A stretch of DNA of 35,477 bases from Polaromonas sp. (GTDB lineage: Bacteria; Pseudomonadota; Gammaproteobacteria; Burkholderiales; Burkholderiaceae_C). Made by a program: the position numbers and the translations under genes. Positions within the stretch are counted from its first letter, which is position 1. The number at the start of each line of letters is the position of its first letter. Below the pieces are notes generated by a model. It did no database searches, was not told where the DNA came from, and saw nothing but the letters and a program-made list of their open reading frames with translations. Positions 7,484 through 25,221 of the stretch are shown in pieces. Location: the NCBI GenBank assembly GCA_030683705.1, contig JAUXPP010000002.1:1-35477 (forward strand), read 5' to 3'.

Positions 7484-7500
7484 AAACAGTTTTCACCGAT

Positions 7501-7549
7501 CCTGGTTAGCTATCAATTCAATAGCTGCCTGCGCACGCCCGGCGTGGGC
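7501..7549 (-). repeat. Family 1 dispersed repeat, copy 2
   Basis: Read on the minus strand, the core (7534 to 7501) is GCGCAGGCAGCTAT, then TGAATTG, then ATAGC and TAACCAG. It is preceded by the small hairpin CACGCCGGGCGTG. It lies between thrC and mobB. The first 14 bases of the core are identical to those of the copy inside the phoH-like gene at 13231. Both halves can fold (CACGC with GCGTG; AGCTAT with ATAGCT). Confidence 0.75.
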
Positions 7550-7560
7550 TGGAGGCTGAT

Positions 7561-9057
7561 TTAGTTCACATGTCTGGCGATGTAGGCCTGGACCAGGGCG
7601 ACGTCGGCAGGCATGACCTGCACGCGTTTGGGCAGGGCCTCGATGCCTTCGAATTTCGCCGGTCGGTCCGGCAGGCGGCCCAGCGCCTCCTCAATCGTCT
7701 CGGCAAACTTGATCGGCAAGGCGGTCTCCAGCACCACCATGGGCACGCCGGGCTGCAGGTGGAGCCGCGCGACTTTCAGGCCGTCGGCGGTGTGGGTGTC
7801 TATCATGGTGGCGAAGCGCTGGAAGGTGTCGCGTATGGTGTCCAGCCTGTCGGCATGTGTGCTTTTGCCGCTGGCAAAGCCGTAGTGCTGCGCCGCCGAC
7901 CGGAACACCGGGTCGCCGCTGAGGTCGAAATAGCCCTGCTTCGAGAGCTGCGCACCGAACAGGTCGGCCACGCGTGCCGCATCGCGGCCCAGCAGGTCGA
8001 AGACAAAGCGCTCGAAGTTGGACGCCTTGGAAATGTCCATCGACGGGCTGGAAGTCTCATGGGTGTCGGCACTGCCCCGCACGCGGTACACGCCGGTGCG
8101 GAAAAACTCGTCGAGCACATCGTTCTCGTTGGTGGCGACCACCAGCTTGTCAATCGGCAAGCCCATCATGCGCGCCACGTGGCCGGCGCAGACATTGCCG
8201 AAGTTGCCGGAAGGCACGGTGAAGCTGACCTTCTGGAGCCGGGAATTTTCCGACGGGCCGCCCCTAGGAAAATTAGCCCCCTCGGGGGGCAGCGAGGACA
8301 CGCCAGTGCCGAGCGTGGGGGCCATGTTGGTAGCCTGGAAGTAGCCGGCGAAGTAGTAGACAACCTGCGCCATCAGCCGCGCCCAGTTGATCGAGTTGAC
8401 CGTGCCGATGCGGTACTTGCGCTTGAAGTCGAGGTCGTTGGAGACCGCCTTGACGATGTCCTGGCAATCGTCGAACACACCTTCGAGCGCGAGGTTGTGG
8501 ATGTTCTCGTCCTGCAGGCTGAACATCTGCGCCTGCTGGAAGGGGCTCATGCGGCCCTGCGGCGAGGTCATGAAAACGCGCACGCCCTTTTTTCCACGCA
8601 TCGCGTATTCGGCCGCGCTGCCGGTGTCGCCACTGGTGGCGCCCAGGATGTTGAGCTCTTCGCCGCGGCGCGCCAGTTCGTATTCGAACAGGTTGCCCAG
8701 CAGCTGCATCGCCATGTCCTTGAAGGCCAGCGTCGGGCCGTTGGACAGGGCCTGGAGGTAGAGGCCGTCTTCCAGTTGGCGCAGCGGCACGATCTCTTTG
8801 GTGCCGAAGACTTCTTCGGTGTAGGTCTTCTCGCAGATGGCCTTGAGGTCGGCCGCCGGGATGTCGTCGATGTAGAGCGACAACACCTCGAAGGCCAGGC
8901 TGGCATACGGCAGCTTGCGCCATTTTTCGAGCGTGGCGGCATTGACCTGCGGATAGCTCTCGGGCAGGTAGAGGCCGCCGTCCGGGGCCAGGCCTTCGAG
9001 CAGGATTTCGCAGAAGCGCTTGCGGTCGGTGTGGCCGCGTGTGGACAGATACTTCAT
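7561..9057 (-). CDS. thrC: Threonine synthase, with a repeat-derived in-frame insertion
   Basis: This PLP enzyme converts O-phosphohomoserine to threonine. The 498 residues start MKYLSTRGHTDRKRFCEILL. The PLP lysine is K113 in NGPTLAFKDMAMQLLGN. Other landmarks are GATSGDTGSAAEYAM, SINWARLMAQVVYYFAGYF and VPSGNFGNVCAGHVARMMG. Between the last two lies a Gly/Pro/Ser-rich stretch (about residues 244-275, including LPPEGANFPRGGPSEN). It is encoded by a repeat element also found between nuoI and nuoH, and it makes the protein about 28-30 residues longer than expected. The frame is intact on both sides and conserved sequence resumes at once, so the enzyme is probably functional, with an extra surface loop. 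ATG 9057 overlaps the hom stop by one base (TGATG). An upstream extension in this frame (to 9156) is not conserved-looking. Confidence 0.96.
   Translation of the reverse strand: MKYLSTRGHTDRKRFCEILLEGLAPDGGLYLPESYPQVNAATLEKWRKLPYASLAFEVLSLYIDDIPAADLKAICEKTYTEEVFGTKEIVPLRQLEDGLYLQALSNGPTLAFKDMAMQLLGNLFEYELARRGEELNILGATSGDTGSAAEYAMRGKKGVRVFMTSPQGRMSPFQQAQMFSLQDENIHNLALEGVFDDCQDIVKAVSNDLDFKRKYRIGTVNSINWARLMAQVVYYFAGYFQATNMAPTLGTGVSSLPPEGANFPRGGPSENSRLQKVSFTVPSGNFGNVCAGHVARMMGLPIDKLVVATNENDVLDEFFRTGVYRVRGSADTHETSSPSMDISKASNFERFVFDLLGRDAARVADLFGAQLSKQGYFDLSGDPVFRSAAQHYGFASGKSTHADRLDTIRDTFQRFATMIDTHTADGLKVARLHLQPGVPMVVLETALPIKFAETIEEALGRLPDRPAKFEGIEALPKRVQVMPADVALVQAYIARHVN
8246..8328. repeat. Family 2 dispersed repeat inside thrC
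   Basis: The stretch TTTTCCGACGGGCCGCCCC, AGGAAAA, GCCCCCTCGGGG, GCAGCG, ACACG, AGCGTGGGGGCCAT matches 24064-24148 in the same order and orientation, with only scattered mismatches. It encodes about residues 244-271 of threonine synthase. GCCCC-CTCG-GGGGC can form a stable hairpin in the mRNA. Confidence 0.85.
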
Positions 9058-10379
9058 CAGGCGAGTTCTTCCTTGCGGATGCGCGTGATCGGCGACAGCA
9101 CGGTGGGCAAGGCCTGCATCTGCGCCAGTGCGCCGTTCATCTTTGCTTCCACACAATCGTGCGTCAGGATGATCAGGTCGGTATGCGTCGAGCCCTCGCC
9201 GCCGACTTCATCGGCCTCGCGCTGCAGCACCGCGTCGATGCTGATGCCGGCCTCGGCCAGGATGCCGGTGACCCGGGCCAGCACGCCGGCCTCGTCGGCC
9301 ACGTTCAGGCGCAGGTAATAACTGGTAACAACTTCGCTCATGGCCAGCACCGGCTTGTCGCTCATGGACTGCGGCTGGAAGGCCAGGTGCGGCACGCGGT
9401 GCAGCGGATCGCTGGTGTGCAGGCGTGTGATGTCGACCAGGTCGGCGATCACCGCGCTGGCGGTAGGCTCGCTGCCTGCGCCCTTGCCGTAATACAGCGT
9501 GGTGCCCACGGCGTCGCCCTGCACCACCACGGCATTCATCGCACCTTCGACATTGGCGATCAGGCGCTTGGCCGGCACCAGCGCAGGATGCACGCGCAGT
9601 TCGATGCCCTTGGCCGTCTGTTTGGTGATGCCCAGCAGTTTGATGCGGTAACCGAGTTGTTCGGCGTAGCGGATGTCCTGCGCGCCCAGCTTGGTGATGC
9701 CTTCCACATAGGCCTTGTCGAACTGCACCGGGATGCCGAAGGCAATCGCCGACATCAGCGTGGCCTTGTGCGCGGCATCGACACCCTCGATGTCGAAGGT
9801 CGGGTCGGCTTCGGCGTAACCGAGGCGCTGCGCTTCTTTCAGCACCCCGTCGAAGTCCAGGCCCTTGACGCGCATATCGCTGAGGATGAAGTTGGTGGTG
9901 CCGTTGATGATGCCGGCGATCCACTGGATGCGGTTGGCCGTCAGGCCCTCGCGCAGCGCCTTGATGATGGGAATGCCGCCGGCCACCGCCGCTTCGAACG
10001 CCACCATCACGCCCTTGCGGTGCGCCGCCGCAAAAATTTCGGTGCCGTGCACGGCCAGCAGCGCCTTGTTGGCGGTGACCACATGTTTGCCGGCCTCGAT
10101 GGCTTCCAGCACCAGCGCTTTGGCGATGCCGTAGCCGCCTATCAGCTCGATCACGATATCGATCTCGGGATTGGCGATCACCTTGCGCGCGTCGTCCACC
10201 ACCGTGATGCCCGCGCCCGCCGCGGCCTGCGCGCGTGCCGTGTCCAGGTCGGCGACCATCGCGATTTCAATGCCGCGGCCGGCGCGGCGGAGGATTTCTT
10301 CCTGGTTGCGGTTCAGCACGGTGAACACACCGCTGCCGACGGTGCCCATGCCCAGCAGGCCTACCTTGATCGGTTTCAT
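9057..10379 (-). CDS. hom: Homoserine dehydrogenase
   Basis: This NAD(P)-dependent enzyme reduces aspartate semialdehyde to homoserine, the branch point to threonine and methionine. The protein is 440 aa from MKPIKVGLLGMGTVGSG, which carries the Rossmann motif. Further landmarks are GKHVVTANKALLAVHG (catalytic lysine region), GIINGTTNFILSDM, EADPTFDIEGVDAAHK and a C-terminal ACT domain (YYLRLNVADEAGVLARVTG) that usually mediates threonine feedback. It is monofunctional, with no aspartokinase part. Two earlier in-frame starts exist: GTG 10415, overlapping the alaA stop, and ATG 10397. I prefer 10379 on family length, but none has a clear Shine-Dalgarno sequence. It is placed between alaA and thrC. 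Confidence 0.96.
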   Translation of the reverse strand: MKPIKVGLLGMGTVGSGVFTVLNRNQEEILRRAGRGIEIAMVADLDTARAQAAAGAGITVVDDARKVIANPEIDIVIELIGGYGIAKALVLEAIEAGKHVVTANKALLAVHGTEIFAAAHRKGVMVAFEAAVAGGIPIIKALREGLTANRIQWIAGIINGTTNFILSDMRVKGLDFDGVLKEAQRLGYAEADPTFDIEGVDAAHKATLMSAIAFGIPVQFDKAYVEGITKLGAQDIRYAEQLGYRIKLLGITKQTAKGIELRVHPALVPAKRLIANVEGAMNAVVVQGDAVGTTLYYGKGAGSEPTASAVIADLVDITRLHTSDPLHRVPHLAFQPQSMSDKPVLAMSEVVTSYYLRLNVADEAGVLARVTGILAEAGISIDAVLQREADEVGGEGSTHTDLIILTHDCVEAKMNGALAQMQALPTVLSPITRIRKEELA

Positions 10380-13007: not shown

Positions 13008-14699
13008 ATGCCCCTGCCTCCCGCCCCGACAAAACGTGCCGCTCTGCTTTCCACCGAGGCCTTCGACGCCCCGGCCCGGTCGCCCTCCAAAGCCGCGCGA
13101 AAGACGGAACAGGCCGAGCCGGCCCGCAAGCCACCCGCGCTTGACCTGTTCGACAGCCGTTCCGCCGGCGGCGAAGCCGAACATCCTGTTGCATATCAGG
13201 CCAAAGAGACCGCCAGCCCAGTCAAGGCCAGCGCAGGCAGCTATCATAAAGATAGCGACCAGCCGGCACGTCCGCAAGCTGCTGCCAAGCCCAAAAAGCC
13301 CAAACACACTGGCCCGGCCAAGCTGTTCGTGCTCGACACCAATGTGCTGATGCACGACCCGATGTGCCTTTTCCGCTTCGAGGAACACGACATCTTCCTG
13401 CCGATGATCGTGCTGGAAGAGCTCGACGGCCACAAAAAGGGCATGACCGAAGTCGCGCGCAACGCGCGCCAGACCAGCCGCACGCTGGACGCCCTGGCCG
13501 GCACCAACGGCGCCGACATCGCCAAAGGCCTCAAGCTCGACACCACCGGGCACAAGGAAGCCGGCGGCTGCCTGTTTTTCCAGACCAGGGTGCTGGACTA
13601 CTCGCTGCCCATGAGCCTGCCGCAGGGCAAGGCCGACAACCAGATCCTCGGCGTGGTCGAAGCGCTGCGCAAGGAATACGCGCCGCGCGAGGTGGTGCTG
13701 GTGTCCAAGGACATCAACATGCGCGTCAAGGCGCGCGCCCTGGGCCTGGCCACCGACGACTACCAGAACGACAAGACGCTGGAAGACGGCGACCTGCTTT
13801 ACGCCGGCTCGCTGGCCCTGCCGCCCGACTTCTGGACGCGCCAGAGCAAAACCATCGAAAGCTGGCAGCAAGGCAGCCACACCTTCTACCGCATCACCGG
13901 CCCCATCGTCGGCAGCCTGCTGATCAACCAGTTCGTGTTTTTCGAGGCCCCCGGCGAACCGCCACTGTATGCCCGCGTGACCGAAATCCGCGCCAAGACC
14001 GCGGTCCTCAAGACCCTGAAGGACTACACCCACCTGAAGAACGCGGTCTGGGGTATCACCACCCGCAACCGCGAGCAGAACTTCGCGATGAATCTGCTGA
14101 TGGACCCGGAAGTCGACTTCGTGACGCTGGCCGGCACGGCCGGCACCGGCAAGACGCTGATGGCTCTCGCCAGCGGCCTGACCCCGGTGCTGGACGACCG
14201 CCGCTACACCGAGATCATCATGACCCGCGCGACCGTCAGCGTCGGTGAAGACATCGGTTTCCTGCCCGGCACCGAAGAAGAAAAAATGGGCCCCTGGATG
14301 GGCGCGCTCGACGACAACCTCGAAGTGCTCGGCAATAACGACAGTGGCTCCGGCGAATGGGGCCGCGCCGCGACCAACGAGCTGATCCGCTCGCGCATCA
14401 AGGTCAAGAGCATGAACTTCATGCGCGGCCGCACCTTCCTGAACAAATACGTGATCATCGACGAAGCGCAAAACCTGACGCCCAAGCAGATGAAGACCCT
14501 GATCACCCGCGCCGGCCCCGGCACCAAGATCATCTGCATGGGCAACCTGGCGCAGATCGACACACCCTACCTGACCGAAGGTTCGTCCGGCATGACTTAC
14601 GCCGTGGACCGCTTCAAGGGCTGGCCGCACGGCGGGCACATCACGCTGGCACGCGGCGAGCGCTCACGCCTGGCCGACTTCGCCAGCGAGGTGTTGTGA
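13008..14699 (+). CDS. PIN domain plus PhoH-type ATPase
   Basis: This is a 563-aa two-domain protein of the PhoH2/YlaK type, in which a PIN ribonuclease domain is fused to a PhoH helicase-like ATPase; such proteins act on RNA. A disordered Ala/Pro/Lys-rich N-terminus (1-100) leads into the PIN domain, with LFVLDTNVLMHDP (D110), MIVLEELDGHKKGMTE and the acidic VLVSKDINMRVKARALG. The ATPase has Walker A LAGTAGTGKTLMALASG (about 372-388), TRATVSVGEDIGFLPGTEEE, Walker B KYVIIDEAQNLTPKQMKTL and ICMGNLAQIDTPYLTEGSSG. Residues of about 75-85 in the linker are encoded by a Family 1 repeat, without frame damage. The stop overlaps a possible GTG start of the next small gene. Confidence 0.93.
   Translation: MPLPPAPTKRAALLSTEAFDAPARSPSKAARKTEQAEPARKPPALDLFDSRSAGGEAEHPVAYQAKETASPVKASAGSYHKDSDQPARPQAAAKPKKPKHTGPAKLFVLDTNVLMHDPMCLFRFEEHDIFLPMIVLEELDGHKKGMTEVARNARQTSRTLDALAGTNGADIAKGLKLDTTGHKEAGGCLFFQTRVLDYSLPMSLPQGKADNQILGVVEALRKEYAPREVVLVSKDINMRVKARALGLATDDYQNDKTLEDGDLLYAGSLALPPDFWTRQSKTIESWQQGSHTFYRITGPIVGSLLINQFVFFEAPGEPPLYARVTEIRAKTAVLKTLKDYTHLKNAVWGITTRNREQNFAMNLLMDPEVDFVTLAGTAGTGKTLMALASGLTPVLDDRRYTEIIMTRATVSVGEDIGFLPGTEEEKMGPWMGALDDNLEVLGNNDSGSGEWGRAATNELIRSRIKVKSMNFMRGRTFLNKYVIIDEAQNLTPKQMKTLITRAGPGTKIICMGNLAQIDTPYLTEGSSGMTYAVDRFKGWPHGGHITLARGERSRLADFASEVL
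13231..13262 (+). repeat. Family 1 dispersed repeat, copy 3, inside the phoH-like gene
   Basis: GCGCAGGCAGCTAT, CATAAAG, ATAGC, GACCAG. The first 14 bases and the ATAGC arm are identical to the intergenic copy at 7501-7534, with a one-base length difference after ATAGC. It is read in frame as part of the flexible linker (ASAGSYHKDSDQP) before the PIN domain. Confidence 0.75.
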
Positions 14700-23513: not shown

Positions 23514-24011
23514 TCAGCGGTACTTGGCATCGACAGCGCGGTTCGCTGCAATTTCTTTTTCGTAGCGGTCACCCACGGCCAGCAACATGTCCTTGGTGAA
23601 GTACAGGTCACCGCGCTTTTCACCGTGGTATTCAAAGATGTGCGTTTCGACGATGGAATCGACCGGGCAGCTTTCCTCGCAGAAGCCGCAGAAAATGCAC
23701 TTGGTCAGGTCGATGTCATAACGCGAGGTGCGGCGGCTGCCATCATCACGGACGTCGGATTCGATGGTGATGGCCATGGCCGGGCACACGGCCTCGCACA
23801 GCTTGCAGGCGATGCAGCGCTCCTCGCCGTTGTCATAACGGCGCAGTGCGTGCAGGCCGCGAAAGCGCGGGCTCAGCGGGGTTTTTTCTTCCGGAAACTG
23901 GATCGTGATCTTGCGGCTGAACATGAACTTGCCGGTCAGGGCCATGCCCTTGAACAGCTCGGTCAGCATGAAGCTGGATACGAAGTCTTTGACGGAGGCA
24001 ACTGCACTCAT
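23514..24011 (-). CDS. nuoI: NADH-quinone oxidoreductase subunit I
   Basis: This 165-aa peripheral subunit holds clusters N6a and N6b. Two ferredoxin motifs are present: [12 protein letters not shown] (C66, C69, C72, C76) and [12 protein letters not shown] (C105, C108, C111, C115), with the fourth ligand of each binding the other cluster. The N-terminal amphipathic part [20 protein letters not shown] anchors it to the membrane. CAGGAAA lies about 10 bases before ATG 24011. Unlike most junctions in this operon, the gap to nuoH is 136 bases and is filled by a dispersed repeat. Confidence 0.97.
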
Positions 24012-24030: not shown

Positions 24031-24148
24031 CTACACGAAGTGAGCGAACGTGGGGGCTCATATTTTTCCGACGGACCGCCCCAAGGAAAAATGCGGCCCC
24101 CTCGGGGAGCAGCGCATTACACGAAGTGAAAAGCGTGGGGGCCATATT
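24031..24148. repeat. Family 2 dispersed repeat between nuoH and nuoI
   Basis: The unit 24064-24148 (TTTTCCGACGGACCGCCCC, AAGGAAAAA, GCCCCCTCGGGG, AGCAGCGC, TACACGAAGTGA, AGCGTGGGGGCCATATT) matches the copy inside thrC at 8246-8328. Its last 30 bases are repeated directly upstream (24032-24063: TACACGAAGTGA, then ACGTGGGGGCTCATATT), so the element looks like one and a part copies. It runs into the nuoH stop codon (24148-24150). Confidence 0.85.
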
Positions 24149-25221
24149 CACTTCCAGATGTTGTAAGGGGTCTGCATCCAGGCCCCCACCACGACCAGCC
24201 ACACCAGCGTCACGGGGATGAAAATTTTCCAGCCCAAACGCATGATCTGGTCGTAACGGAAACGCGGGAAGGTGGCGCGCACCCACAGGAACAGGGTCAC
24301 GACCACAAAGGTCTTGGCGCCCAGCCAGATCCAGCCCGGAATGAAGGACAGGAATTCGAACGGCGGCAGCCAGCCGCCGAGGAACAGGATGACGGCAAGG
24401 ATGGCCACCAGCCACATGTTGGCGTATTCGGCCAGGAAGAACATGGCAAAGGACATGCCCGAGTACTCGACCATGTGGCCGGCGACGATTTCAGACTCGC
24501 CCTCCACCACGTCAAAGGGGTGGCGGTTGGTCTCGGCCAGGCCGGAGATGAAATACACGACAAAAATCGGCAGCAACGGCAACCAGTTCCAAGACAGGAA
24601 ATTCATGCCGTACCCCACGCCCATGCCTTTGGCCTGGCTCATCACGATGTCGGTCATGTTCAGGCTGGCGGAGACCATCAGCACCACCACCAGGCAGAAA
24701 CCCATGGCGATCTCGTAGCTGACCATCTGGGCCGACGCACGCATCGCACCCAGGAAGGCGTACTTGGAGTTGGAAGCCCAACCCGCGATGATCACGCCGT
24801 ACACCTCGAGCGAGGTGACTGCCATCAGGAACAGCAGTCCGGCATTGATATTGGCCAGCGCCACATCGGGGCCGAAAGGAATCACCACCCAGGCCACCAG
24901 CGCAGGCATGATGGTCATGATGGGGCCCAGCACAAACAGGCCCTTGCTGGCCGCCGTCGGGATGATGATTTCCTTGGTCAGCAATTTGAGCGCATCGGCA
25001 ATCGGCTGCAGCAGGCCGAAGGGTCCGATGCGGTTGGGACCCAGACGGATCTGGGTAAAACCAATCGCCTTGCGTTCCCACAGGGTCAGGTAGGCCACAC
25101 AACCCATCAGGGGGGCGACCACACAAATGATCTTGATCAGGGTCCAGATCACCGGCCACACCGTGCCCGGCCAGATACCCCCCATCAAGCCCTGGCCGGC
25201 ATTGAAGATTGTGTCAATCAT
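24148..25221 (-). CDS. nuoH: NADH-quinone oxidoreductase subunit H
   Basis: This 357-aa membrane subunit, with eight or so helices, forms the quinone entry chamber with NuoB and NuoD. Landmarks are [59 protein letters not shown] and [21 protein letters not shown] [20 protein letters not shown] with [13 protein letters not shown]. The ATG overlaps the nuoG stop (ATGA). Its stop abuts a repeat element. Confidence 0.97.

Follow-up and report, generated by a model that had tools for sequence, protein, structure and literature searches.

A dispersed palindromic repeat read in frame within threonine synthase of Polaromonas sp., at a linker also occupied by unrelated repeats

In-frame palindromic inserts in proteins are, as a kind, already known. 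In Rickettsia, the palindromic repeats termed RPE are read in frame within conserved enzymes (PMC2229807; PMC10969869), and about half of the 44 RPE of R. conorii are reported to be located in ORFs (PMC10969869). The GTAG and CGTC REPs are short palindromes found in ORFs of several bacteria and tolerated in enzymes, and different REPs have been located near the same recB site in two Xanthomonas species, as given in the main text of that report, which makes no mention of Polaromonas, Acidovorax, Comamonas, thrC or threonine (PMC3733652). A third system is the beta-proteobacterial repeat element (BRE), a GC-rich element of about 90 bp (75–91 bp in Bordetella) that forms tandem arrays (Hot et al., 2011, PMC3110155). 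BRE are most numerous in Polaromonas JS666, with 29 copies, and some lie wholly inside coding sequences; the section of that report that describes them contains no in-frame protein analysis, list of host proteins or reuse of a site (PMC3110155).

Here, we describe a repeat of this kind in a window of 35,477 nucleotides from Polaromonas sp. (assembly GCA_030683705.1, contig JAUXPP010000002.1, positions 1 to 35,477). An initial annotation, made from the letters alone, had claimed that an 83-base dispersed repeat entered thrC and is translated there. Three features of the window are needed to follow this claim:

7561..9057, minus strand: thrC, threonine synthase, 498 aa, stop codon at 7561–7563 (translation, NCBIfam TIGR00260, PDB 3v7n)

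8246..8328, minus strand: palindromic repeat copy, in frame as ThrC residues 244–271 (BLAST family, core count, empty relatives)

24064..24148, plus strand: second repeat copy, between the ORFs 23514–24011 (minus) and 24148–25221 (minus)

The protein matches TIGR00260 with 215 bits (cut-off 167.1) and PDB 3v7n with an E-value of 1.6e-201. When window 8235–8335 was used as a BLAST query against the window's assembly, 24064–24148 aligned to query bases 12–94, which correspond to window 8246–8328, with 81% identity (E 1.8e-14); the copy relationship proposed between the two stretches is borne out, and it was BLAST that recovered the pair, which is absent among the 20 families listed by the window repeat finder. 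The 83 bases are read as 28 codons of ThrC, and the minus-strand translation agrees with the residues (about 244–271) that the repeat had been said to add. The 3v7n chain aligns to ThrC residues 1–244 and then to 273–497, its own residues 261 and 263 flanking the join, and is therefore without the insert. In the window's ThrC, the insert is predicted to be disordered and lies between a helix (221–245) and a strand (277–282). A further dispersed palindromic repeat, at 7509–7555, sits immediately downstream of thrC and its stop codon; it has an inverted copy (74%) at 13210–13256, and its first 20 bases occur at 127 genome sites at up to three mismatches (control 0).

The embedded repeat belongs to a large family in its host genome, a draft assembly of 4.11 Mb in 172 contigs with an estimated contamination of 5.04%. 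The BLAST query has 45 matches in this assembly, and a 19-base core, at up to two mismatches, occurs at 103 sites, with none for the reversed pattern; the possibility that the element does not recur in the genome, which would have spoken against a mobile repeat, can be set aside. The copies described below are the 100 found in fetched stretches around the 100 core places listed. The conserved span of the repeat is about 74–81 columns, and in six close pairs the cores are 81 or 84 bases apart, both spacings being multiples of three. A core stem is nearly invariant, and the arms of a second, outer stem are highly variable yet complementary. At the outer stem pair of columns 8/26, for instance, 90 of 100 copies form a Watson–Crick pair, against 41 expected with shuffled partners, and the pair is C–G in 44 copies and G–C in 41. 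A single copy has no better folding energy than its shuffles do (z −0.80 and −0.88, neither significant), and the case for a hairpin is made by this covariation. Across the genus, the core is present in 59 of 61 genomes at up to two mismatches (the reversed-pattern control gave one match in each of two of the 61 and none in the rest). At up to one mismatch, it was found in 25 of 250 genomes sampled across the order, with many copies in a few.

ThrC is one of many proteins that appear to carry this repeat. Using codon statistics trained on the window's genes, 38 of the 100 copies pass a test for an open frame with coding flanks on both sides, and a slightly different rule gives 37 ORFs; the search for the element within genes that the initial annotation had proposed thus places 37 of the 100 copies in coding open frames. 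Both flanks are coding in the same frame in 45 copies (38 open and 7 not open across the element), where unrelated neighboring genes would be expected to agree in frame about a third of the time. Of the remaining copies, 26 have flanks that code in different frames of one strand, 22 have a coding flank on one side only, 3 have coding flanks on opposite strands and 4 have none. We judge that 30 of 36 ORFs have recognized Pfam domains flanking or spanning the element, ThrC being the 37th, and six ORFs stay uncalled (L003, L148, L152, L155, L167 and L180). The Pfam-supported hosts, named from their Pfam families, include proline dehydrogenase (PutA), MetG, a MurD-type ligase, RecG, PriA, TrpE, a PurL-type protein, AidB, kynureninase and FdhD, among others. 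In TrpE, the repeat fills a loop in 58 of the 119 homologues with anchors, and 52 have a short linker; it is read in more than one frame across these homologues and is present as a tandem double copy in P0163. The MurD type has one loop occupied in 22 of 119 and a second in 9 of 119, with both occupied in 5. The same repeat occupies the two MurD-type loops in different frames (P0293, P0294, P0297, P0299, P0300 and others).

Maintenance of the open frame by coding selection was considered as the main cause of this readability and is rejected: copies at in-gene loci are as open as the others (4.78 and 4.80 of 6 frames, respectively; mononucleotide shuffles 4.66 and 4.38).

By description, the repeat resembles the BRE in size (about 74–81 columns), dispersal and partial tandem pairs (PMC3110155), and the TrpE of Polaromonas JS666 (P0130) bears the peptide of the window's repeat. 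This size, the richness in Polaromonas, the tandem pairs and the TrpE of JS666 make it probable that the repeat is the published BRE, the two having been compared by description. The view that translation in frame has not been described for this repeat is therefore right in part: the element itself would be the BRE of Hot et al. (2011, PMC3110155), and in-frame protein analysis is absent from the section of that report noted above. The behavior was also said to resemble that of the Rickettsia palindromic elements, and a palindrome read in frame inside conserved proteins is what is found here. This likeness is one of behavior, seen by description, and the sequence is presumably a different one. 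Unlike in the RPE, the host is a betaproteobacterium, a single family provides 37 in-gene candidates, and several unrelated families occupy one site. Set beside REPs of the GTAG or CGTC type (a single stem of 20–40 bp with a GTAG or CGTC end tag), the element is longer and combines a conserved core stem with a variable-arm stem. Set beside MITEs (terminal inverted repeats and a target-site duplication), it has stems, and no target-site duplication is apparent by eye in the filled and empty alleles compared.

That the thrC copy is an insertion is indicated by relatives with an empty linker. The closest empty allele among those compared, L216, has flanks 92.4% and 91.4% identical in DNA to those of the window's thrC and is 26 residues shorter at the insert site, the gap for which an orthologue alignment had been suggested; L216, the window and L061 form one branch (SH-aLRT 99). 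Each of 20 family genomes sampled among those with a ThrC match split at the insert point has a short linker, in agreement, as is 3v7n, with the earlier remark that the two conserved blocks are nearly contiguous in the family. The linker is also short in 71 of 80 loci from titled species genomes. The family genomes with ThrC number 294. Besides these 20, 29 loci from them were read; as the top matches to a filled query they form a biased sample, with 17 carrying a recognized repeat (window included), 6 other inserts and 6 empty. In the genus, 55 genomes have a match; of the 50 alleles read from them, 37 are empty and 13 filled. With the many genome copies, the empty relatives and the predicted disorder of the stretch, the original observation holds: 8246–8328 is a copy of a palindromic dispersed repeat inserted in thrC.

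The same linker has been occupied by more than one repeat. Among 120 near homologues (query included, P0117 dropped for anchors not found), with classes assigned by regular expression, the linker holds the window's repeat (type A) in forward orientation in 55 and in reverse in 1, a STGSARTE-type repeat (type B) in 18 and a PHPNPLPxGEG-type repeat (type C) in 4, whereas the other 42 have an empty linker. Types B and C are dispersed repeats as well, the type B core occurring in 37 and the type C core in 35 of the 61 genus genomes (controls 0). The window's own genome has 30 matches to the type B core and none to the type C core; type B has no match in the window. On one branch with support of 100, alleles about 90–97% identical in DNA on their flanks are empty (L212, L213 and L214), filled by type B (L210 and L211) or filled by type C (L253). 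The linkers of L038 and L074 carry the insert SPHPRGDGTDATDLGLTPLSMEQGGAEGG, unlike all three repeat types. L048 (G070:C33:66372–67934) has a type C insert, and a second thrC match covering residues 1–244 lies on the same contig (G070:C33:176088–176819).

Codon-level constraint on the insert is weak, with a pN/pS of 0.73 against 0.18 in the flanks. Silent divergence is lower in the insert (0.165) than in the flanks (0.343), which plain neutrality would not predict. This shortage of silent changes would fit hairpins kept for a role in the thrC mRNA (pausing, attenuation or stability), with the peptide as a by-product, as would the outer stem pairing, which is kept in 37 of 41 copies at in-gene loci (these including a few second copies near, not inside, a gene) and in 53 of 59 elsewhere. 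The latter comparison cuts both ways, however, since copies outside genes pair equally and a gene-specific role is unnecessary to explain the pairing. Moreover, an empty linker suffices in many relatives, the insert differs in sequence and length between types, and an Rfam scan of window 7500–9100 at E up to 1 matched no family. We regard an mRNA role as unlikely.

How often the linker changed state was estimated on a thrC DNA tree of 142 sequences taken without the insert (159 before rows with the same sequence and the same class were combined). The locus L054 was dropped, like P0117, for anchors not found. This tree requires 25 state changes without class O (unclassified inserts) and 31 with it, or 19 once branches under SH-aLRT 95 are collapsed, counts in which gain and loss are not separable and which come from a set enriched for filled alleles. 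Split by type, A forward accounts for 13 of the changes, A reverse for 3, B for 2 and C for 7 (11, 3, 1 and 7 on the collapsed tree). A protein tree of 252 rows made with FastTree needs 73 changes, or 68 if class O is omitted, and the smaller DNA-tree numbers are preferred. Shuffled labels yield 25–30 changes (mean 29); because the observed 25 is at the low end of this range, there is some inheritance of linker state.

An ancestral insert lost many times, so that the scatter reflects loss and not repeated entry, would draw on the inseparability of gain and loss in these counts, on clades that kept one insert (e.g., L040, L043 and L047) and on L215, whose short linker has DNA that starts like a type C insert and then stops, a possible deletion remnant. 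Conversely, three unrelated types and both orientations of one of them in the same linker are impossible from a single ancestral insert, and alleles beyond the near homologues are mostly empty, as in the titled species genomes and 3v7n. Such an explanation is quite improbable, and the linker was probably entered repeatedly by mobile repeats. It had been suggested that orthologues sharing the peptide would argue against insertion. The peptide is indeed shared, 56 of the 120 near homologues carrying the repeat in either orientation, but on the tree these carriers are interspersed with alleles that are empty or hold another insert, so the sharing does not overturn insertion.

When 280 ThrC proteins are aligned, insertions of at least five residues relative to L216 cluster at residues 243–249, with lesser groups at 95–98 and a few at 49 and 332. 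The cluster at 243–249 of an empty reference could be read as a DNA target sequence, the spot being hot by its bases and not by the tolerance of the protein. This is very unlikely: unrelated repeats in both orientations have entered with differing junctions, other enzymes with other sequences are filled too, and the stretch is predicted to be disordered. We consider the ThrC linker a likely tolerant loop. At residues 95–98, a long linker with a STGSARTD-like peptide is present in 7 of 121 proteins (P0027, P0029, P0037, P0062, P0081, P0105 and P0110), and P0027, P0029 and P0105 have the STGSARTD type in both ThrC loops. That the insert is an artefact of a draft assembly with 172 contigs and a 5.04% contamination estimate is hardly credible, as the 99% cluster containing this protein (P0002) stands for 8 contigs and repeats at the site are also present in proteins without a MAG label, from Polaromonas eurypsychrophila (P0005), Polaromonas sp. 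AET17H-212 (P0073), Curvibacter fontanus (P0034) and Variovorax sp. N23 (P0113), and in Xylophilus ampelinus CECT 7646 (L067).

The reading that we favor, and think very probable, is that a palindromic dispersed repeat was inserted by mobilization into a presumably tolerant thrC linker and that in-gene copies of it survive in loops. In such a model, the moving form would be a hairpin that inserts at many places. Because the repeat is GC-rich, it is open in about 4.8 of 6 frames, and a landing with a net length that is a multiple of three would be readable and allow read-through. Copies that break a fold would presumably be purged, so that in-gene copies would be found in loops and linkers, and a few such loops may be filled anew by the repeats active in each lineage. 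We infer from these comparisons that the repeat is mobile and moved by an enzyme, that its in-gene copies are translated in the cell and tolerated, and that others are purged. Copies of GTAG-type REPs flank a RAYT transposase gene; here, one ORF of the Y1_Tnp type is present (G000:C1:19021–19302), with only generic-looking inverted repeats in its flanks; none of the 100 core sites listed (103 in total) is on its contig, C1. A further possibility, which we raise tentatively, is that the loops at ThrC 244–273, ThrC about 95–98, TrpE and the two MurD sites are standing landing pads for active palindromic repeats, and that the embedded copies might be under DNA- or RNA-level constraint, still live elements or mRNA hairpins while being translated.

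Relative to the systems described above, the new part is the reuse of one enzyme loop by several unrelated repeat families. The shared recB site of the GTAG and CGTC REPs, in the text of that report, is a single case in two species (PMC3733652), whereas the ThrC linker is filled in many genomes, in both orientations and by three types. In the open-access literature, no report was found of the repeat in thrC, of in-gene copies at this scale or of one loop with three repeat types. For annotation, peptides of the PTL..LPPEGA, SGGS..SVGA and STGSARTE types inside enzymes can derive from repeats. The thrC alleles amount to a natural replicated experiment in protein insertion tolerance, in which close enzymes exist with and without unrelated inserts at one spot, some of them in bacteria that are named isolates. 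A comparison of these alleles can directly test if selfish repeats read in frame do harm, are neutral or supply new parts of proteins.
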